From assembly GCA_037481695.1 (NCBI GenBank), contig JBBFLE010000001.1:192989-256988 (forward strand): 64,000 nucleotides of DNA, in the 5' to 3' direction. Origin of the DNA: a bacterium. GTDB taxonomy: Bacteria; Desulfobacterota; Desulfocorpusculales; Desulfocorpusculum. Made by a program: the position numbers and the translations under genes. The notes beneath the pieces are model-generated. The model saw nothing but the letters and a program-made list of their open reading frames with translations, was not told the DNA's origin and did no database searches. Below, piece by piece: positions 7,702 through 19,278 of the stretch (the stretch's first letter is position 1; each line of letters starts with the position of its first letter).

Positions 7702-8493
7702 CTATCTCCCCTTCCAAAGAGGTTCCCTTTTCTGAAGAAAGGCCGTAACTCCCTCCACCATGTCTTCCAACTGGGTATTGTGGGTAAGCTGGGAGGCCAG
7801 GTATTCCAGTGCCCTCTCCAGAGGAAGATCGGCCATGGCGTAAAACGACCCCTTCCCCAGAGCCATCACCGCAGGGCTGAAAGAAGCCAGTTTTCTTGAG
7901 GTTTCCTCCACCACCTGTTGGAACTGATCACGGCCCACCACCCTGTTCAAGATCCCAAGTCTCTCTGCCTCAAGGGCTCCCATACGTTCTCCGGTCATGC
8001 ACAGTTCCAAAGCTTTCTTGGGTCCCACGTGCCTGATGAGCAAAGCCGTAACCATGTAGGGCCACAAGCCTCGCTTTATCTCAGGGAGGGCGAACTGGGC
8101 ATCCTCTGTGGCTATGGCCAGGTCGCAGGCCAAACAAAGTCCCAGGCCCCCTGCCATACAATATCCCTCCACAGCCCCCAAGATGGGCTTGGGCGTCCTG
8201 AGCATGGCCTGGAGAAGCTCGGCGTACCTAGCTCGAGCCTTGTGGCAGTCCAAGAAAGAAGACTCTCCTGCGCCAAGTCCTGAACCCAGGTCTGCCCCTG
8301 TGCAAAAGGCCTTTCCCCCGACTCCCCTTATGACCACAGCCCCCACCTGGGGATCCTCGGCTGCCTTTTTCAAGGATTCCTCCATTGCTGCCATGACTTG
8401 AGCAGTTAGGGAGTTCATGGCAGCCGGCCGGTTTATGAGTATGAGGGCAACCCTGTCTTTCACCTCGTACAGAAGCTCTTGTTCCTTGCTCAT
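7702..8493 (-). CDS. Enoyl-CoA hydratase/isomerase (crotonase) family protein
   Basis: About 263 residues with a crotonase fold. TGADLGSG near residue 65 is the CoA-pocket/oxyanion segment, and GYCMAGGLGLCLACDLA near 110-126 is the second oxyanion loop. Of the two catalytic glutamates of classical enoyl-CoA hydratases, the second is present (LPEIKRG, E138). The first, normally in GGCEL, is replaced by Gly (G118). The enzyme may therefore be an isomerase, decarboxylase or hydrolase rather than a standard hydratase. I chose ATG 8493 because GGGAG lies 7 bases before it; an in-frame TTG at 8517 is the alternative. It is the last gene of the operon that runs 12681 to 7702. Confidence 0.88.
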   Translation of the reverse strand: MSKEQELLYEVKDRVALILINRPAAMNSLTAQVMAAMEESLKKAAEDPQVGAVVIRGVGGKAFCTGADLGSGLGAGESSFLDCHKARARYAELLQAMLRTPKPILGAVEGYCMAGGLGLCLACDLAIATEDAQFALPEIKRGLWPYMVTALLIRHVGPKKALELCMTGERMGALEAERLGILNRVVGRDQFQQVVEETSRKLASFSPAVMALGKGSFYAMADLPLERALEYLASQLTHNTQLEDMVEGVTAFLQKREPLWKGR

Positions 8494-8521
8494 GAGCCAT
8501 CTCCCTTGAAGTCCCAATGAA

Positions 8522-9394
8522 TCAACGGCCTATGCCCAGGATCTCTCTGGCCTCATCCGGGCTGGCCACCTCTCTTCCGGTCTCCCTCACAAACCTGGCC
8601 ATGGCTTCCACCAGCTCCCCATTACCCCGGGCCTTTTTACCCTCGGGAAGATAGAAGGTGTCCTCCAGGCCGGTGCGAACGTTCCCTCCGAGTTCCAGAG
8701 ACTTCCTCTGAAGCTCCCAGACTTCGCTTCTTCCCACGGCAATGACCTGCCAGTGGGTTCCTGGTTCCATCTCATTGAGCAGCAGAGGAAGCCATTCGGG
8801 CTTGGCAGGCATACCGCTGGCCACGCCCATCACCAGGGAAACATGGGCACAGCCTTGGAACATGCCATTCTTCTTAAAGAGAAAGACGCTTCTGAGAATT
8901 CCGGTGTCAAAGCACTCGAACTCCGGCACCACCTTACATCTGTTCATCACTTCCAGGTAACCCCTTATCTTCTCCACTGGATTGTCGAACAAGATGGGAG
9001 GCCAGGCCCAGGATCCGTCCTCTTTGAGCTTGAGATAATTGAGGGAGCCAGCATTGCAGGCTGCCATCTCGGGTCTGAACTCCTCCAGGCACCTCAGTGG
9101 ACCCGATATGTCAGGACCAGGCACTCCCGTGCTCATGTTGATTATGATCTTTGGAACTCTCTCCCTTATGGCCCTCAGAATCGCCCCCACAGTATCCAGA
9201 TCCCATGTGGGCATATGGCCCTTGCCTGGCTCCTGATTGCGGAAGTGGCAGTGCACAATGGAAGCCCCCGCATCATATGCCTGGGCAGCATGCTCAGCCA
9301 TTTGTTCCGGGGTCACTGGCACTGGATGGATCTTGGGATCAGTGAGAACTCCTGTCAAAGCACAGGTGATTATGGCCTTGTCCTGCAGGCTCAT
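8522..9394 (-). CDS. Beta-keto acid cleavage enzyme (BKACE/DUF849, 3-keto-5-aminohexanoate cleavage enzyme family)
   Basis: A 290-residue TIM-barrel enzyme. The opening ITCALTGV and AGASIVHCHFRN (H48 and H50, the usual metal ligands) are diagnostic for the family, as is the following INMSTG strand. Family members condense a beta-keto acid with acetyl-CoA and split it to acetoacetate plus a new CoA ester; the substrate varies. The best known member works in lysine fermentation, but no kam or kdd neighbours are seen here. It lies between a carboxyltransferase and a crotonase in one operon. It is therefore inferred to release or load a CoA ester in the same pathway. Confidence 0.9.
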   Translation of the reverse strand: MSLQDKAIITCALTGVLTDPKIHPVPVTPEQMAEHAAQAYDAGASIVHCHFRNQEPGKGHMPTWDLDTVGAILRAIRERVPKIIINMSTGVPGPDISGPLRCLEEFRPEMAACNAGSLNYLKLKEDGSWAWPPILFDNPVEKIRGYLEVMNRCKVVPEFECFDTGILRSVFLFKKNGMFQGCAHVSLVMGVASGMPAKPEWLPLLLNEMEPGTHWQVIAVGRSEVWELQRKSLELGGNVRTGLEDTFYLPEGKKARGNGELVEAMARFVRETGREVASPDEAREILGIGR

Positions 9395-9448: not shown

Positions 9449-11005
9449 CTAGGTGGGGGAAACCCCGTGGCTTTTTGCCCTAGGGGGCAAGACCTCCCTC
9501 TTGCCTTCTGTTATTCTTAAGGCCTGGATTATCTTTCTCCTGGTCTGAGCGGGCTCTATGATCTCGTCCACCATTTGAGCGCTCCAGGAACGGGCCACAT
9601 CGAAAACATCCACCTTCTCCCTGGAACGTGAAAGGTACTGCCCCAGATCCTCTTCCAGCCCTTTGATCTGCCTAAGCCCACCATGATCTAGCTGGGAGGC
9701 CTCCACGGCAAACCTGGCAATGGGCCATGCAAAGACAAGGTCTGTGCCCATGCTCTTGACACCTCCCATGATCAAACTGCCTGCATCTGCATAGGCCTCT
9801 CTGAAAACCACCGTGATCTTAGGAATGGTGCTGGTAGCATAAAGATCTAGCAGCTTGCCCACATGTCTCAGCAATCCCCTGGCCTCCTCTGCCTCTGCAG
9901 GAACCAAGGGAGGGCTGTCCAGGATGTTTACCATGGGAATTCCGTATGCTTCCAATACCTGGAGGAACCTGTAATACTTGTCACAGGCATTCACCTCCAG
10001 GAGGCTGGCCCTGTGGGCCGGGTTACTAGCCACCAGACCCACCACACGGCCTTCCATCCTGCCAAAACATGTTATCACCTGGGGAGCGTATTCCCCTTTG
10101 ATCTCCAAGATTTCCCCCTCGTCCACCAGGAGCCTTATGACTTGGTGCATGTCATAGGGCATATCGTAATCCTCTGGCACCAGCTTCAAAAGCTCCTTCA
10201 CCTCCCGGTTGGGATCATCTTGGGGAGGCAGCCGTGGAGCTTCCTCCCTGTGGCTGGAGGGAAGGTACCCTAGCAACCTCCTGCAGAGGGATATGGCCTC
10301 TTTGTCGTCTTCCCCCACCAGGTCGCAGGTTCCTGTGAGGCGCATATGGTAGTCCGCGCCGCCTATGCTGCGGTCGATCTGTTCAGAAGTGGCTGCTGCG
10401 GTCTGTCTGGGCCCCCCAAGCCAGAGATTCCCTGACACGCGGCTCATGATCAGAAAGTCGCAAAGCACGGGCAGATAGGCCCCTCCGGCAATACATGGGC
10501 CCATCAAGACCGTAATTTGCGGTATCACTCCGGAGTAAAGCGACTGGAGCCTAAACTGCCAGTCTATGCCGGCCATGGGCACATCTCTGTAGCCCAGTCT
10601 GCCCCCTGAGGAATCCAGCAGGTTGACCATGGGGATTCCCCAGGAGGCAGCCATCTCCAGAGATTTACAGAATTTGAACACCGTCTGAGTGCCCACCGAG
10701 CCTCCCAGCACAGTGAAATCGCTGGCATGCACCATTACAGGCCTTCCATTGATCTCCCCGGTTCCTACCACAGCTCCATCGCACGGTGCATCTACCACCT
10801 TACCGTCCACCCTTACCCCTGTGGTGTTCACGCATGAGCCCAGCTCCTGGAAGGTGCCCGGGTCCACGAGCTCCTGGATACGCTCCCGCGCCGTGAGCTT
10901 TCCCCGATCGTGCTGGCGTTGGATCTGCTCGGGTCCTCCACCCAAGAGATTACGATGCTGGATCTGCCTTAGCCTTTCTAAGGCCTTGTCCATCCTTTCG
11001 CCCAT
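9449..11005 (-). CDS. Acyl-CoA carboxylase carboxyltransferase (PccB/MmdA-like), paralogue A
   Basis: 518 residues comprising both crotonase-like halves of the biotin-dependent carboxyltransferase beta family. The KLTARERI segment near residue 37 is typical. The first oxyanion loop GPCIAGGAY (169-177) is intact. In the second half the usual YGGAYDVM is replaced by YADAGSLIM (405-413), so the second oxyanion loop is abnormal. A strong CAGGAGG lies 8 bases before ATG 11005. It follows the paralogue at 11131-12681 by 125 bases in the same operon. Biotin carrier and biotin carboxylase are encoded divergently next door. Predicted role: transfer of the carboxyl group between carboxybiotin and an unknown acyl-CoA. 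Confidence 0.9.
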   Translation of the reverse strand: MGERMDKALERLRQIQHRNLLGGGPEQIQRQHDRGKLTARERIQELVDPGTFQELGSCVNTTGVRVDGKVVDAPCDGAVVGTGEINGRPVMVHASDFTVLGGSVGTQTVFKFCKSLEMAASWGIPMVNLLDSSGGRLGYRDVPMAGIDWQFRLQSLYSGVIPQITVLMGPCIAGGAYLPVLCDFLIMSRVSGNLWLGGPRQTAAATSEQIDRSIGGADYHMRLTGTCDLVGEDDKEAISLCRRLLGYLPSSHREEAPRLPPQDDPNREVKELLKLVPEDYDMPYDMHQVIRLLVDEGEILEIKGEYAPQVITCFGRMEGRVVGLVASNPAHRASLLEVNACDKYYRFLQVLEAYGIPMVNILDSPPLVPAEAEEARGLLRHVGKLLDLYATSTIPKITVVFREAYADAGSLIMGGVKSMGTDLVFAWPIARFAVEASQLDHGGLRQIKGLEEDLGQYLSRSREKVDVFDVARSWSAQMVDEIIEPAQTRRKIIQALRITEGKREVLPPRAKSHGVSPT

Positions 11006-11130
11006 TGTGTCAGCCTCCTGTGGCTCTAGAAACTGATGTGCTTTGCCCTGGATTGCCAGGCGGTCCGTAAAGTCCCACCAAGGGTCTTTGCTTGGCTGAC
11101 ATTTGAGTCTGTGGACTTGCTCGGCTCATC

Positions 11131-12681
11131 TCACGCTGGCTTGATGTAGCGTCTCTTGGCCGGCAGATATTCTGCTTTTCCCCTGGTGGCCCTCAAGGCC
11201 TGTATTATCCTTGTGCGCGTCTCACGAGGATCTATGACCTCATGTACCGTATACCAGGAAGTGAAGACCTTCCCCATGTTGAGCACGCTGAACATCTCCT
11301 TCAAGATGCCTAGGTACTTCTGGTACACCTCCTGGTAATTGCCTTCCTCCCGGGCCTTGGCCAGCTGCTTGTGGAATACTGCATGCACTATTATTTCCGG
11401 ACCCGTGGGGGCAAACTCCACGGTTGGCCAGCCATAGATAAAATCAGGTCCCATCTTGGAGCAGCCCATTACTATGTTGGAGCCGCCGTACGAGCGCCTT
11501 AGAACTATGGTCACCTTTGGGTTGGTCAGATGGGTGTATCCATGGAGATTTTTGGCCCCGTGGCGGATCACCCCCAGGCGTTCCCATTTGTCCCCAGGTG
11601 GAAAGGCCGTGGTATCCGAGAAGGTGACAAGGGGAATATTAAAGCAATCTAGAAACATGATGAATTTGTCGTACTTGTCCGAAGAATCCGGCTCCATTAT
11701 CCCGCTGAGTTCCTCAGGATTGTTGGCCGCAATACCGGCCACCATGCCATCGAATCTGGCAAAGCCGATAACCATATTTGGAGCAAACTCCTCCTTCAAC
11801 TCGAAGAATTCCCCGTTGTCCACAACCGATTCCAAGATTTCATGAATGTCATAAGTGAACTTGGGATCATCGGGCATCACATCCAACAATGTTTCATCGG
11901 CCCGGTGGGGGTCATCCGTGGGTTCCACGCATGGAGGTGAATCCCAACAATTCTGGGGCAAGAAACCCAGGAGTCTTCGAGTGATCTGAAGCGCTTCCTC
12001 GTCGCTGGAGGCCACAAGATCACACTGCCCGGCCTTGGACATGTGAAATCCTGCGCCCCCTGCATCCTCTGATTCCACAGCTCCTCCGAACCAGAGAAAG
12101 GCTGTTTTGCGGTTCATTATTGTAAAATCCGACAGAGCCACCACCTGCGCCAAGGGCCCCACGCAGGGACCCAAGACCAAGGCTATCCTTGGAATCACGC
12201 CTGAATAAAGGCAATAGTTCTTGATCAACCTCCCCAAACCATGGAGCCCAACCCCACCGTTTTTGAACCCCAACCTGGAGCCCACGGAGTCCAGGATACC
12301 TATGATGGGAATCCTTTGCTGACCTGCCATTTGAACCAGCTCAGCCATTTTCCAGACCCCTTGATCTCCCAAAGAGCCTCCCAGAAGGGTAAAATCCGTG
12401 GCATAAACCATCACATGACGACCTTCCAGCCTTCCCAGCCCCATTACCACGCCATCGCCGGGGGTAGGCTTCCCAGCCAAGTCCAACAGCCCCGAAGGCT
12501 CTCTCACCAGGGAACCCAACTCCTGGAAGCTTCCAGGATCCAGCAACTTCTCTATCCTCTCCCTGGCCGTGAGCTTTCCCAGGGAGTGTTGGATGCGTAT
12601 ACGCTGCTCCCCCCCACCTCTTAGATTCTCTCCTCTTATGGCTTCCAGCCGCTTCAGATAGCTATCCATCCATTTGCCCAT
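11131..12681 (-). CDS. Acyl-CoA carboxylase carboxyltransferase (PccB/MmdA-like), paralogue B
   Basis: 516 residues from ATG 12681, chosen because GGAGGAAG precedes it and family homology begins there; a longer frame opens at 12822. It shares the KLTARERI block and overall plan with paralogue A. The first oxyanion loop is degenerate: GPCVGPLAQ (171-179) lacks the Gly-Gly of GPCAGG. The second loop keeps YGGSN (398-402), close to the normal YGGAY. This is the mirror image of paralogue A, which suggests the two form one heteromeric enzyme with one good site half each. It is the first gene of the operon, facing the biotin carrier gene across 173 bases. Confidence 0.89.
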   Translation of the reverse strand: MGKWMDSYLKRLEAIRGENLRGGGEQRIRIQHSLGKLTARERIEKLLDPGSFQELGSLVREPSGLLDLAGKPTPGDGVVMGLGRLEGRHVMVYATDFTLLGGSLGDQGVWKMAELVQMAGQQRIPIIGILDSVGSRLGFKNGGVGLHGLGRLIKNYCLYSGVIPRIALVLGPCVGPLAQVVALSDFTIMNRKTAFLWFGGAVESEDAGGAGFHMSKAGQCDLVASSDEEALQITRRLLGFLPQNCWDSPPCVEPTDDPHRADETLLDVMPDDPKFTYDIHEILESVVDNGEFFELKEEFAPNMVIGFARFDGMVAGIAANNPEELSGIMEPDSSDKYDKFIMFLDCFNIPLVTFSDTTAFPPGDKWERLGVIRHGAKNLHGYTHLTNPKVTIVLRRSYGGSNIVMGCSKMGPDFIYGWPTVEFAPTGPEIIVHAVFHKQLAKAREEGNYQEVYQKYLGILKEMFSVLNMGKVFTSWYTVHEVIDPRETRTRIIQALRATRGKAEYLPAKRRYIKPA

Positions 12682-12854: not shown

Positions 12855-13118
12855 ATGGATCAGCAGGCTGCCAAACGCGTGGAAGTGAGGGCTCCCATGT
12901 CCGGCATTTTTTACCGAAAACCCGCCCCAGACCAACCACCCTTTGTGGAGGTGGGAGACAAGGTCAAGAAGAAACAGGTCTTGGCACTTCTAGAGACCAT
13001 GAAGGTCTTTCAAAAGGTGAAATCTCCTGCAGACGGTAGAATAGTTGAAATAATTGCACAGAATGAATCACCGGTGAAAGACAACGATCTGATGTTTGTG
13101 ATTCAGCAGGAGGACTAG
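12855..13118 (+). CDS. Stand-alone biotin carboxyl carrier protein
   Basis: An 87-residue biotinyl/lipoyl domain. The biotinylation loop reads ETMKV (residues 52-56) rather than the usual EAMKM; the target Lys is present. EVGDKVKKKQVLALL and VKSPADGRI flank it as expected. ATG 12855 is preceded by GGAGGAGGG. It is encoded immediately upstream of the biotin carboxylase and divergent from the two carboxyltransferases. It most likely carries carboxybiotin between them. Confidence 0.92.
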   Translation: MDQQAAKRVEVRAPMSGIFYRKPAPDQPPFVEVGDKVKKKQVLALLETMKVFQKVKSPADGRIVEIIAQNESPVKDNDLMFVIQQED

Positions 13119-13285: not shown

Positions 13286-14647
13286 ATGTTTCGTAAGGTG
13301 CTGGTTGCCAATCGTGGAGAAATAGCCCTCAGGGTCATTCGGGCCTGCAGGGAAATGGGGATTCAAAGCGTAGCCGTGTTCTCGGAGGCAGACAAGGAAA
13401 GCCTTCATGTGCGCATGGCTGATCAGGCAGTGTGCATAGGGCCTCCTCCCAGCTCCAAGAGCTACCTAAACCTGGAGGCCATCATGGAGGCAGCCAAGGC
13501 AACAGGGGTTGAGGCCGTGCACCCAGGATACGGGTATCTGGCCGAGGAAGAAGAACTGGCCATGGCTTGTCAAAGGGAAAACCTGGTTTTCATCGGCCCA
13601 ACTCCCGAGAACTTGAGGTTGGCTGGAGACAAGATTCTGGCCAAACAGACCGTGGCCAGGGCAGGAGTGCCTGTTCTGCCCAGCAGCCATGGAGCAATAG
13701 GCTCCCTGGAAGAGGCCTTGTCATGGGCAGATCGCATCGGCTATCCGGTCCTGATCAAGGCGGCCGGGGGCGGGGGAGGACGGGGAATCCGGGTCTGCCA
13801 GAATGAGGAAGATCTCAGGGAAGAATATCCCATAGCCAAGGCAGAGGCCAAGGCAGCCTTCGGAAACGATGAAGTTTACATGGAAAAGAGAATAACCTCT
13901 GCCCGCCATGTGGAGTTCCAAATCCTGGCGGATGTCAGAGGAGAGGTGGTGCATCTGGGCGAAAGAGAGTGCACCATCCAGAGAAGATACCAGAAACTCA
14001 TAGAGGAGTCCCCCTCCCCTTCTTTGAGTCCTGGACTCAGGGACCAGATGGGCCACGCGGCCGTGGCTGCGGCCAGAGCCGTCAATTACCGCAATGCTGG
14101 CACGGTGGAGTTCTTGTTGGACCCAGAAGGGCGTTTCTACTTCATGGAGATCAATGCCAGGATCCAGGTGGAGCACCCCGTGACAGAGCAAGTCACAGGT
14201 CTGGACCTGGTCAAGGAGCAGATCCGAATAGCTTGGGAAGAGCCCTTGATGCCCTTTCTAAAACAGATCAAGCCCAGTGGCTGGGCCCTGGAATGCAGGA
14301 TCAATGCAGAGGATCCTCAAAAGGGTTTCCTGCCCTGCCCGGGCCTGGTTGAGGAGCTCAAAGTTCCTGGTGGCTTCGGGGTTAGAGTGGACACACATCT
14401 GTACCAGGGCTATGAGTTGCCCATGTATTATGACTCACTGGTGGCCAAGCTCATCTCTTATGACAGGACGCGCCAGGGCGCCATCTCGGTCATGAGGCGG
14501 GCGCTCAAGGAGTTCGTCATTCACCCCATACGCACCACCATCCCTCTTCATCTTAGGATCCTTGAGGATCCGGATTTCTTAGCAGGTCGCTTTGACACTG
14601 AGTTTGTCAAGAGGTTTTTTCCCCAGCAGGAGGATGAGCAGGACTGA
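13286..14647 (+). CDS. accC: Biotin carboxylase subunit of acyl-CoA carboxylase
   Basis: 453 residues with the three biotin carboxylase parts. The N-terminal Rossmann-like domain has VLVANRGEIALRVIRA. The ATP-grasp domain has IKAAGGGGGRGIRV near 157-170 and MEINARIQVEHPVTE. The C-terminal barrel has LECRINAEDP. It carboxylates the biotin of the 87-residue carrier encoded 168 bases upstream, using ATP and bicarbonate. Given the neighbouring carboxyltransferases it probably serves a catabolic or assimilatory acyl-CoA carboxylase rather than fatty acid synthesis. Its 3' end overlaps the convergent hydrolase gene by 41 bases. Confidence 0.95.
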   Translation: MFRKVLVANRGEIALRVIRACREMGIQSVAVFSEADKESLHVRMADQAVCIGPPPSSKSYLNLEAIMEAAKATGVEAVHPGYGYLAEEEELAMACQRENLVFIGPTPENLRLAGDKILAKQTVARAGVPVLPSSHGAIGSLEEALSWADRIGYPVLIKAAGGGGGRGIRVCQNEEDLREEYPIAKAEAKAAFGNDEVYMEKRITSARHVEFQILADVRGEVVHLGERECTIQRRYQKLIEESPSPSLSPGLRDQMGHAAVAAARAVNYRNAGTVEFLLDPEGRFYFMEINARIQVEHPVTEQVTGLDLVKEQIRIAWEEPLMPFLKQIKPSGWALECRINAEDPQKGFLPCPGLVEELKVPGGFGVRVDTHLYQGYELPMYYDSLVAKLISYDRTRQGAISVMRRALKEFVIHPIRTTIPLHLRILEDPDFLAGRFDTEFVKRFFPQQEDEQD

Positions 14648-15542
14648 GACTCATCTGCCCAGCCACATGGCGGACCATTTGTTTGAAAACCCCTTGAAAG
14701 ATTTCGGGTGTAAGAAGGTAATCGGGGTTCCGAAAATAGAATCTTCTGGTTAGCTCTCTGGCCGCCTCCTCAATGTCTAGGCTTTGCAAATAGAGTTCCT
14801 CCATCTCTTTTCTCAGCCCTGCAGCAATCTGGCTTGCCCTGGCCATGAACTCCCCGGCCTCTTCTCCACAAACATAGCCATAGTGGTCTGCGCAGACGTA
14901 TTTAACCGGCAAGCCCCTCAAGCGTTCCAGGTTTTTCTGGTATAGGGTGAAGTCAGAATTCCCGGATGTGATGATGGTGTCTTTAAAGGGAATTCCCCCC
15001 GCGTCAGAGGCAAACACAGCTTCCCATCGGGGCACCCACGCAGTTATGGAACAGGAGGAATGCCCTGGGGTCTCCAAGATCTGGATCTCCAGGTCTCCCA
15101 GATCAATGCTATCCCCCTCTCCCACCCTACTGCCCAGGATATCGGTCCGCCATTGCCAGTCGTAATCATCCAACACTCCCAGGCAATCCATTCTGGCTGC
15201 CACAGCCCTGGAGAATGAGTTTATGGTCTCAAGGACCTTGGGGGTCTGCAGAAGCTCCCAGGCTCTCTTGGAAGCCAGCAGCTCCAGGTGTGGCCACTGT
15301 CTTTTCAGATAAGGGGCTATTCCTACATGATCGAAGTGGGCATGCAGGATCAATAGCCTGGAAACTCGGGTAGGATCCAGCCCAAATTCTGTGATCTGTC
15401 TCAGAACATCCGGAACTATGTAAGACATGCCTCCGCTGATCAGCATGGAACTATTCTTGCCCTCCAAGAAATATACGCATGACTCTTCTGTGCCCAATAG
15501 CCACAGCCCTTCACACACTCTACCAGGTTGTCTCACCCTCAT
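14607..15542 (-). CDS. Metallo-beta-lactamase-fold hydrolase
   Basis: 311 residues. HAHFDH (67-72) is the dinuclear-metal HxHxDH motif. ETPGHSS supplies the next histidine, FASDAGG the bridging Asp, and ADHYGY the last His. Family members include glyoxalase II-like thioesterases and many other hydrolases. Next to acyl-CoA genes, a CoA-thioesterase or lactone/ester hydrolase role is plausible but unproven. The stop lies inside the 3' end of the convergent biotin carboxylase gene. It is 20 bases downstream of the cysteine-cluster gene and likely co-transcribed with it. Confidence 0.88.
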   Translation of the reverse strand: MRVRQPGRVCEGLWLLGTEESCVYFLEGKNSSMLISGGMSYIVPDVLRQITEFGLDPTRVSRLLILHAHFDHVGIAPYLKRQWPHLELLASKRAWELLQTPKVLETINSFSRAVAARMDCLGVLDDYDWQWRTDILGSRVGEGDSIDLGDLEIQILETPGHSSCSITAWVPRWEAVFASDAGGIPFKDTIITSGNSDFTLYQKNLERLRGLPVKYVCADHYGYVCGEEAGEFMARASQIAAGLRKEMEELYLQSLDIEEAARELTRRFYFRNPDYLLTPEIFQGVFKQMVRHVAGQMSLSPAHPPAGEKTS

Positions 15543-16734: not shown

Positions 16735-16910
16735 GGCCCACCTCCACACGGGTCTGATTCTCAGCCCCAAAGAGCCCTGCCAGAAGGCTCTTGTCCAGGA
16801 TAACTGCTTTGAGGCTTGCTTCAAACAAGGCCCGGGATTGCGCAGAGCTTTGACACATAGTAATCTTGCCTCGGAGCCTTGTGCAGGGTAAAGAGCTTTT
16901 GGAGGCTGCG

Positions 16911-18149
16911 ATGCAAGATGCGTCAACCACCCCCCCTGATCTGAAGTCCATGGTGAAAAAACTCAGTGCAGGAGCCTCTTACCGCAGGATGCTTGCGGCC
17001 AGCGAACAGGGAAGGCCCATTTGTGTGGCCAGTGCCGCCGTGCCGGTGGAGGTGCTCTATGCCATGGATGTATACCCAGTCTTTCCAGAAAGCCTTGCTG
17101 CCATAGCAGCAGGAATAAGGAAGGCCGATGAGTTCTTTGAGGCTGCGAGGGAGAGGGGCTTTTCCAACTCAGTCTGCTCTTACACCAGGTGCGGACTTGG
17201 GATCGCCTGGACCCAGAAGTCAGCTTTTGGTCCCATACCCGAGCCTGACCTTTTCATCACCGATGTAAGCGTTTGCTGTTTGCATGTCACCTGGTGGGCT
17301 TATCTGGAAGAGCATTTCAAGAAGCCCACCTTTTACATGGACATGCCGGCCACAGATGATCCTTGGGATCCCGAATATGTGGCTTACTATGAAGAGCAGA
17401 TCAGGGCCATGGTTGGATTCATAGAGGAGCATACTGGCTGCAGGTTACACATGGACAGACTCAAGGAGGCGGTGAGCAACTCGGATCTGGCCGGGCTTTA
17501 CTGGAAAAAAATCCTGGAGCTTCGGCGCCATAAGCCTTCACCGGTGAGCTTCAGAAATCTGGCAGGGGAGATCTTGCCCTTGGTCACTGCTTTGGGAGAG
17601 AAGGATTGTGCGGATTTTTACTGGGCCCTTTATGAGGCATACAAGCAACAGGCTGCTCAAGGCTACAGCCCAGCCCAAGGAGGGGAGCGCTTCCGCCTCA
17701 TCTGGAACGGAATTCCCATTTGGCATCACCTGCAAGTCATAAACTACTTCGAGGAAAAAGGTGCCAATTTCGTCTGGGAACCTTACACAGCATTGAGCTG
17801 GGGGAACAAAACCCCTACGGGGAGGCTTGACCCAGAAGAGCCTTTTCGTACCCTTGCCCAGAAATACACCAACATCCTGACCAACATGCCCCTGCACAGG
17901 CGATTTCAATATTTTGATCAGGCCATAAGGGACTACCAGGTGGACGGACTGGTCATGTTCTCCAACAGGAGCTGTCGGCCTCAATCCATTGGCCAGGACG
18001 AGGTGGTGGAGATGGTGCGGGAAATTCACGGCCTGCCAGTGCTCATATTCGAGGGAGACCAGGCCGATGCAGAGGGGTTCAGCCTGCAGGAGGCCAAGAC
18101 CAGAATCGATGGCTTCTTGGAGATACTTCAAAGCAGCAAGAGGGGTTAA
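16911..18149 (+). CDS. 2-hydroxyacyl-CoA dehydratase / benzoyl-CoA reductase family subunit (first)
   Basis: 412 residues from ATG 16911, which has GGAGG 7 bases upstream. Family blocks are clear. VCSYTRCGLG near residue 88 and DVSVCCLHVTWW near 120 supply cysteines. MFSNRSCRPQSIGQ near 360 is the conserved SNRSCKPxSxGQ region, and the C-terminal PVLIFEGDQAD is followed by an AKTRIDGFLE block. These proteins hold [4Fe-4S] clusters and perform radical dehydration of 2-hydroxyacyl-CoA, or ring reduction in the BcrB/BcrC branch. The partner subunit follows after 4 bases, and two activases are encoded nearby on the other strand. The substrate is not evident. Confidence 0.9.
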   Translation: MQDASTTPPDLKSMVKKLSAGASYRRMLAASEQGRPICVASAAVPVEVLYAMDVYPVFPESLAAIAAGIRKADEFFEAARERGFSNSVCSYTRCGLGIAWTQKSAFGPIPEPDLFITDVSVCCLHVTWWAYLEEHFKKPTFYMDMPATDDPWDPEYVAYYEEQIRAMVGFIEEHTGCRLHMDRLKEAVSNSDLAGLYWKKILELRRHKPSPVSFRNLAGEILPLVTALGEKDCADFYWALYEAYKQQAAQGYSPAQGGERFRLIWNGIPIWHHLQVINYFEEKGANFVWEPYTALSWGNKTPTGRLDPEEPFRTLAQKYTNILTNMPLHRRFQYFDQAIRDYQVDGLVMFSNRSCRPQSIGQDEVVEMVREIHGLPVLIFEGDQADAEGFSLQEAKTRIDGFLEILQSSKRG

Positions 18150-18153
18150 GCCT

Positions 18154-19278
18154 ATGGATTCCGAGATTCAAGGTCAGATCATGGAGAAATTCAGGCAGGG
18201 TTTCCTGGCTCGCCACCAGGCCTGCAGGCAGTGGAAGAAAAGTGGGCGAGGAGTCATGGGATGCTTTTATGGGCTGGTGCCCAGGGAAGTAGTCCACGCA
18301 GCAGGATTCTTGCCTGTGCAGTTGCTGGAGGAAAGAGACGCTCGTCTGGAGGATAAGGCAAGGCTGCTTCCCTTTTTGTGCGGCATGAGCAAGAACATCA
18401 CTGGTCAGATCTATGAGGGCCGTTACGAGTACCTTGACGGTATCTTGGTTGGGACCGTTTGTGACACCAACCGCCATGTCCTGGATATTTGGGCTCACAG
18501 GAAGGTGGTCCCCTACCTGAGGCTCCTTAGAACACCTTCCAAGGCCGACCATGCGGCGTGGAAATTCTACGCTGCTGACTTGAGACGCCTTGCCCGAGAG
18601 CTGGAGCAGATGGGTGGTCAGGAAGTAACAGAGAAGAGGCTTTGGGAATCCATAGAGCTTTACAACCAAAACAGAATCCTCATGGAAAGGTTTCGAAGTT
18701 CAAGGAATACCCTTGGGATCTCTGCACAAGACGCCCTCTATGTTTTGGCCTCATCCTTGGTGATGCCTGTGGAGAACCATAATGAGCTTTTGCGATCCCT
18801 CTTGCAAACCCCTGCTCGGGCTTGGGATAAGAAGTCCACGGGCCCGGGGATTCTTATTTGTGCCATGAACCTTAACATGGCCTGGGACATCATAAGGCTG
18901 GTGGAGGAATATGGGGGAAGGGTTGTGGCCGATGACTTCACCATCAATGCCAGGTATGGAATCTCCCTGGTGCCAAGGCAGGAGGATCCTTTCCTGGCCT
19001 TGGCCATAGGCTATCTACGAAGGGTGCCTGCTCCAGGCTTATACAGTTTTCAAGAAAGGGCTGAAAGCCTGGCCCAACAGATGAATTCAAGCGGTGCCCA
19101 AGGCCTCATCTATCTGGTGCAATTATATTGCGATGCCTATGCAATGGAGTACGCTGTCTTGAAAGAGAAGTTCGATCTTTGGGGAATCCCTCACATGAGG
19201 CTGGAAGCCGAGGATAATTCAGCCTCCATTCAGCAACTAAACGTAAGGGTACAGTCCTTTCTGGAGTCACTGATCTGA
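18154..19278 (+). CDS. 2-hydroxyacyl-CoA dehydratase / benzoyl-CoA reductase family subunit (second)
   Basis: 374 residues from ATG 18154, immediately after the first subunit; a longer in-frame extension overlaps that gene and is unlikely. Conserved blocks include GCFYGLVPREVVHAAGFLPV near 27-46, an RLLPFLCGMSK segment, LVGTVCDTNRHVLD, and a C-terminal LYCDAYAMEYAVLK block with WGIPHMRLEAEDN. It forms the heterodimer partner of the first subunit. The late GQ(L/I)RTR block of many relatives is changed to QQLNVRV here. The pair order and sizes resemble HgdAB/BcrBC-type enzymes. Confidence 0.9.
   Translation: MDSEIQGQIMEKFRQGFLARHQACRQWKKSGRGVMGCFYGLVPREVVHAAGFLPVQLLEERDARLEDKARLLPFLCGMSKNITGQIYEGRYEYLDGILVGTVCDTNRHVLDIWAHRKVVPYLRLLRTPSKADHAAWKFYAADLRRLARELEQMGGQEVTEKRLWESIELYNQNRILMERFRSSRNTLGISAQDALYVLASSLVMPVENHNELLRSLLQTPARAWDKKSTGPGILICAMNLNMAWDIIRLVEEYGGRVVADDFTINARYGISLVPRQEDPFLALAIGYLRRVPAPGLYSFQERAESLAQQMNSSGAQGLIYLVQLYCDAYAMEYAVLKEKFDLWGIPHMRLEAEDNSASIQQLNVRVQSFLESLI

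Follow-up and report, generated by a model that had tools for sequence, protein, structure and literature searches.

Two adjacent genes in the analysed window (the whole stretch of 64,000 nucleotides) code for carboxyltransferase paralogues, hereafter A and B, whose oxyanion loops are altered in a reciprocal manner. The best explanation of their sequences is that A and B are the halves of one heteromeric carboxyltransferase, in which the N domain of A and the C domain of B probably form a composite active site, N(A)/C(B). The putative enzyme would be an ATP-dependent biotin carboxylase consisting of four distinct polypeptides, namely a biotin carboxylase (BC), a biotin carboxyl carrier protein (BCCP), A and B, the last two originating from the duplication of one PCC-like beta subunit. 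No description of the A/B pair was found in the open-access literature searched.

The two paralogues and their oxyanion loops

Paralogue A (9449..11005, minus strand, 518 residues) and paralogue B (11131..12681, minus strand, 516 residues) are adjacent and their frames are intact. By homology both are full-length two-domain members of the Carboxyl_trans family (PF01039), the profile match spanning 480 residues in each of them (E 7e-104 for A and 7e-120 for B), and they share 40% identity. The ATG start of B at position 12681 agrees with the N-termini of its orthologues (MGxWMDGYL). The nearest solved structure for both proteins is 1vrg, the Thermotoga PCC beta subunit. The AlphaFold model of the A monomer matches PCC and 12S folds with a TM-score of about 0.85 (0.85 to 1vrg); the monomer predictions are of moderate confidence (pLDDT 70 for B), too weak for judging the loops. 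Both proteins miss the NCBIfam cut-off for the alpha subunit of methylmalonyl-CoA decarboxylase, mmdA (TIGR01117), with 436 and 450 bits versus 998.8. The source genome encodes further carboxyltransferases, one of them ordinary and PCC-like.

Orthologues were collected from named genome contigs, which yielded a set of 80 loci consisting of orthologous loci at an identity of at least 48% (L023-L084) and of distant MCC-like relatives (L085-L102); homologues were additionally collected from whole genomes. The hole residues were assigned from a published residue list and by counting along the 3u9r chain, the residues of the second hole being given as Phe380 and Gly421 (PMC5991677). The loop motifs quoted for A and B in the earlier note proved to be present and correctly placed in an alignment to solved structures.

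The N-domain loop of A, GPCIAGGAY (residues 169-177; 10475..10501, minus strand), places Gly174 at the hole position, and this Gly is found in 61/61 full-length orthologues. In the structure-anchored alignment Gly174 corresponds to the second Gly of GPCAGG, the canonical hole Gly of PCC, and to the hole Gly of MCC, which is the first Gly of AGG in GSCTAGGAY. In the equivalent loop of B, GPCVGPLAQ (residues 171-179; 12145..12171, minus strand), the canonical Gly column is occupied by Pro176. Gly is found at this position in none of the 55 full-length B orthologues, which carry Pro (32), Leu (11), Val (8), Thr (2), Ser (1) or Met (1). Chance is excluded as the source of these N-loop states, given that neither set of full-length orthologues (61 A and 55 B) departs from its own state. 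The C-domain loop of B, YGGSN (residues 398-402; 11476..11490, minus strand), is canonical, its YGG-S being aligned with YGG-A in the structure-anchored alignment, and YGG[SAG]N is present in 55/55 orthologues. B therefore lacks the canonical first loop and keeps the second, as had been claimed.

The C-domain loop of A, YADAGS (residues 405-410; 9776..9793, minus strand), is two residues longer than the canonical loop and is not a simple substitution of it. All 61 full-length orthologues have this expanded form, x-D-[AST]-G, with Asp407 and Gly409 invariant. When residues are counted back from the next Met, D-A-G409 of A lies over G-A-G421 of MCC (loop F-G-A-G-N-Y-G-M), and in this MCC register Gly409 may still be at the second hole position. 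The proposal that A has kept its first loop is borne out, and the second loop is altered as proposed, except that the alteration is an expansion in which Gly409 may hold the hole. Neither A nor B contains both hole loops in canonical form within one polypeptide.

Beyond the loops, A keeps 33/45 of the canonical invariants of the N domain and 26/40 of those of the C domain, the corresponding figures for B being 29/45 and 28/40 (alignment tally). This overall tally is only weakly complementary and was dropped as a main argument. Among the canonical invariant positions, the N-loop Gly, a Tyr and a Pro are kept by A and absent in B; several C-domain glycines are kept by B and absent in A.

Pairing, ancestry and divergence of A and B

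The phylum was sampled with 395 genomes: 19 carry A and 18 carry B, all 18 being within the 19, and no genome of this sample carried B without A. One apparent case of A without B (G002) was rejected: the last 43 residues of B lie beside A at a contig end, in a genome that is 80% complete. Among some 60 named loci, B is directly upstream of A in nearly all those with a contig of sufficient length. The exception is locus L058 (7806-9554): upstream of an intact A, all that is left of B is its C-terminal 40 residues, attached to an unrelated, truncated gene. The assembly containing this locus also has an intact A/B pair (L053), and the data fit a deletion and a chimeric contig alike. The co-occurrence survey suggested in the earlier note, covering the 395 genomes and some 60 loci, finds the pair near-invariably together and with the same reciprocal loop states.

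The A/B module is present in Desulfobacterota, in Bacillota (Desulfallas, Desulfotruncus) and in genomes from metagenomes that are placed in other lineages. Two other phyla, sampled with 349 and 399 genomes, yielded no additional genome carrying A. Among the plasmid matches listed there were relatives only, the best being about 38% identical and none reaching 60%.

In a careful tree A and B form sister clades with all other sampled carboxyltransferases outside (support 100/99), and this sister grouping is recovered with a support of 99 in a broader quick tree. The same subgroups recur inside the A clade and inside the B clade with matching branching. Sister clades with matching subgroups point to a single duplication, after which the pair was inherited or transferred as a unit, also into Bacillota. 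The mirror-tree correlation between A and B is 0.89, a value that shared descent alone would yield. Two subfamilies were observed among 55 A/B pairs: in subfamily 1 the loop of A has GG and B has GP with mostly Ser135, and in subfamily 2 A has GQ and B has GL or GV with mostly Glu135. Covariation of the A N loop (GG/GQ) with the B loop (P or L/V) was considered as a line of evidence and rejected, the strong association corresponding to a single independent event on the tree.

The two halves of the proteins have diverged differently. The C-core/N-core divergence ratio is 0.95 for A and 0.65 for B, versus 0.91 for ordinary PCCs (n=10), with disjoint bootstrap intervals of 0.87-0.97 for A and 0.63-0.66 for B. 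Either the N half of B is relaxed or its C half is unusually constrained; the C core of B reaches an identity of 0.76, and nothing else in the two proteins is as conserved. The C half of A is not relaxed and its constraint equals that of the A N half. The "complementary decay" of the two paralogues, claimed in the earlier note, is thus only partly upheld. The reciprocal fixed loop states, the constant pairing, the sister-clade origin and the relaxed N half of B agree with it, but the C half of A does not, given its C/N ratio of 0.95 and the invariance of Asp407 and Gly409.

Gene neighbourhood and probable substrate

The BCCP gene (12855..13118, plus strand, 87 residues, PF00364) is divergent from B and encodes E-T-M-K-V-F-Q around the biotin lysine; E[TS]MK[VI][FY]Q is found in 41/41 module BCCPs. 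A different motif, EAMKM, is carried by another BCCP-like gene (L184) of this genome. The BC is a separate polypeptide of 453 residues (13286..14647, plus strand), above the NCBIfam cut-offs of TIGR00514 and PRK08591. BC and BCCP genes recur around the A/B pair in an order that varies between loci, with one BC gene and one BCCP gene per pair.

Downstream of A are two accessory genes on the minus strand, coding for a beta-keto acid cleavage enzyme (BKACE; 8522..9394, PF05853) and, further downstream, for an enoyl-CoA hydratase family protein (7702..8517, PF00378). Across the A/B loci, the variable neighbours include BKACE (15 loci), acyl-CoA dehydrogenases (16), TIGR03084-type proteins (8), AtuA (3), enoyl-CoA hydratases and AMP-binding ligases. 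Since acyl-CoA dehydrogenases, hydratases, BKACE and AtuA are among these neighbours, a catabolic acyl- or enoyl-CoA is the probable substrate. With low confidence, it might be a branched or unsaturated acid that would be carboxylated, then hydrated and cleaved.

Two other features were observed at and beyond the end of the BC gene. A metallo-beta-lactamase-fold gene (14607-15542) on the opposite strand overlaps the end of the BC gene, its product reaching the cut-off of none of the listed resistance families. Two adjacent genes resembling 2-hydroxyglutaryl-CoA dehydratase D components (PF06050) are located beyond the BC gene at 16866-19278 on the plus strand.

A putative composite site, its rivals and known systems

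In carboxyltransferases of this family, carboxybiotin enters from the side of the partner C domain. The active site is located at the head-to-tail N/C dimer interface, between the N domain of one subunit, to which acyl-CoA binds, and the C domain of its neighbour (PMC11735997). If A is opposite B in the dimer, both loops of the N(A)/C(B) pocket would be canonical, and this pocket would be the expected working site. The opposite pocket, N(B)/C(A), from which the CoA-side hole Gly is gone and in which the C loop is remodelled, would probably not be a working site, leaving one such site per A-B pair instead of two. We infer the A-B contact, the identity of the working site and the stoichiometry from sequence.

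Carboxyltransferases devoid of the N-loop Gly also occur alone in the same genomes (L149/L178, L162/L179, L156/L180, L157/L181), the hole Gly being replaced by Ile, Tyr or Asn. Their N loops read GxCxGISVYSP, GRCAGYAVYG and GPCAGNAAYGP, and they keep the canonical YGG C loop. They form a clade of their own, away from B, and no second carboxyltransferase is found beside them. Because of these solitary carboxyltransferases, the loss of the N-loop Gly is no proof of a dead site in B. Another divergent carboxyltransferase was observed in the source genome (G000:C4, L022:5418-9360) and at L176 and L177, with GECYGMPTW as its N loop and KSYGMAFWNM as its C loop. It is on a long branch, and its neighbours are an SDR and a protein of the HpaB family that may be 4-hydroxybutyryl-CoA dehydratase-like.

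The composite site agrees with the presence of a single BC and a single BCCP for the two carboxyltransferases. Counting against it are the constraint on the A C loop, as A alone might work if Gly409 forms the hole, and the presence of the solitary carboxyltransferases in the same genomes. These last two observations, together with the ordinary constraint on the C half of A, would be in keeping with two homomeric enzymes, A6 and B6, that act side by side on different substrates or in successive steps through modified, working sites. Such an arrangement is rather unlikely, for it would leave one BC gene and one BCCP gene to both enzymes, and A and B stay together in all 19 sampled genomes and in nearly every locus whose contig is long enough. 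The relaxation of the N half of B versus its C half would also be unexpected if B6 used both, and several residues of the B N site are altered, including the Pro at the hole in 32/55 orthologues.

The same relaxation would suit B as a pseudo-enzyme partner (scaffold, BCCP dock or regulator) of an A that is catalytic through N(A)/C(A), its N loop being canonical and its C loop invariant and possibly functional with Gly409 in the MCC register. It is nevertheless the C half of B that is most conserved and that has the canonical YGG, RHGAK and GPE glycines lost in A, which suggests that the C domain of B is catalytic and makes a purely auxiliary B improbable. An artefact (misplaced motifs, frameshifts or assembly error) would find some room in the length change, which leaves the register of the A C loop ambiguous, but the frames are open, and about 60 loci spread over several phyla show the same states. 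For the N loops and the B C loop this origin is ruled out by the structure-anchored alignment and about 60 orthologues, and for the motif differences as a whole it is hardly credible.

A reading that goes beyond the composite N(A)/C(B) site is put forward tentatively, as possible rather than probable. The pair may represent an undescribed, obligately heteromeric class with half-sites split between sister paralogues, in which N(B)/C(A), with its Asp407-x-Gly409, would be kept for BCCP docking or regulation. If the proposed A/B heteromer is real, it would be a clean natural case of duplication and reciprocal half-site loss turning a homomer into an obligate heteromer. It would also give a name to a carboxylase now seen as two generic carboxyl transferases in anaerobes degrading unusual acids, and would call for caution in annotation, neither A nor B alone being a complete enzyme.

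The closest known systems are PccB, the beta subunit of propionyl-CoA carboxylase (1vrg, 3n6r), and the 12S subunit of methylmalonyl-CoA transcarboxylase, which share with A and B the family, the fold, the length, roughly 35-42% identity and the lack of an MCC-type N-terminal extension. PccB is encoded by a single gene and each of its subunits has both loops canonical, whereas A and B seem to divide the work. The N loop of A has the MCC-type spelling xAGGAY. The beta subunits of 3-methylcrotonyl-CoA carboxylase (MCC) and geranyl-CoA carboxylase (GCC) have an extended N-terminal helix of roughly 30 residues (PMC4673880). A and B are devoid of this helix, have a PCC-like N-terminal length and are placed with PCC in the tree.

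Mixed carboxyltransferase hexamers are already known from AccD4/AccD5 of the mycobacterial long-chain acyl-CoA carboxylase (9yx1, 9t97), for which interaction data are available (PMC4347857) and whose chains are present at 2:4 per PDB entry (chain counts). As proposed for A and B from their sequences, two paralogues there belong to one complex. Unlike A and B, the AccD4 chain keeps both loops, GKCAGGAVYSP and KAYGGGYAVM (letters from the matched PDB chain), and in the broader tree AccD4 falls together with PccB of Streptomyces and not within the A/B clade.

The AccA/AccD system (with AccB and AccC) resembles the A/B module in having four proteins and two carboxyltransferase subunits that supply N-type and C-type halves. 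AccA and AccD are single-domain split halves, derived in a published scenario by the splitting of one ancestral subunit (PMC3199775), whereas A and B both have the complete two-domain architecture. Both fail the accD cut-off (36-40 bits versus 317), and accA is matched by B only, at 27 bits versus 319. The A/B pair would thus combine full-length duplication with divided half-sites and, if the proposal is true, would be an independent counterpart of the AccA/AccD arrangement in ordinary bacterial acetyl-CoA carboxylase.
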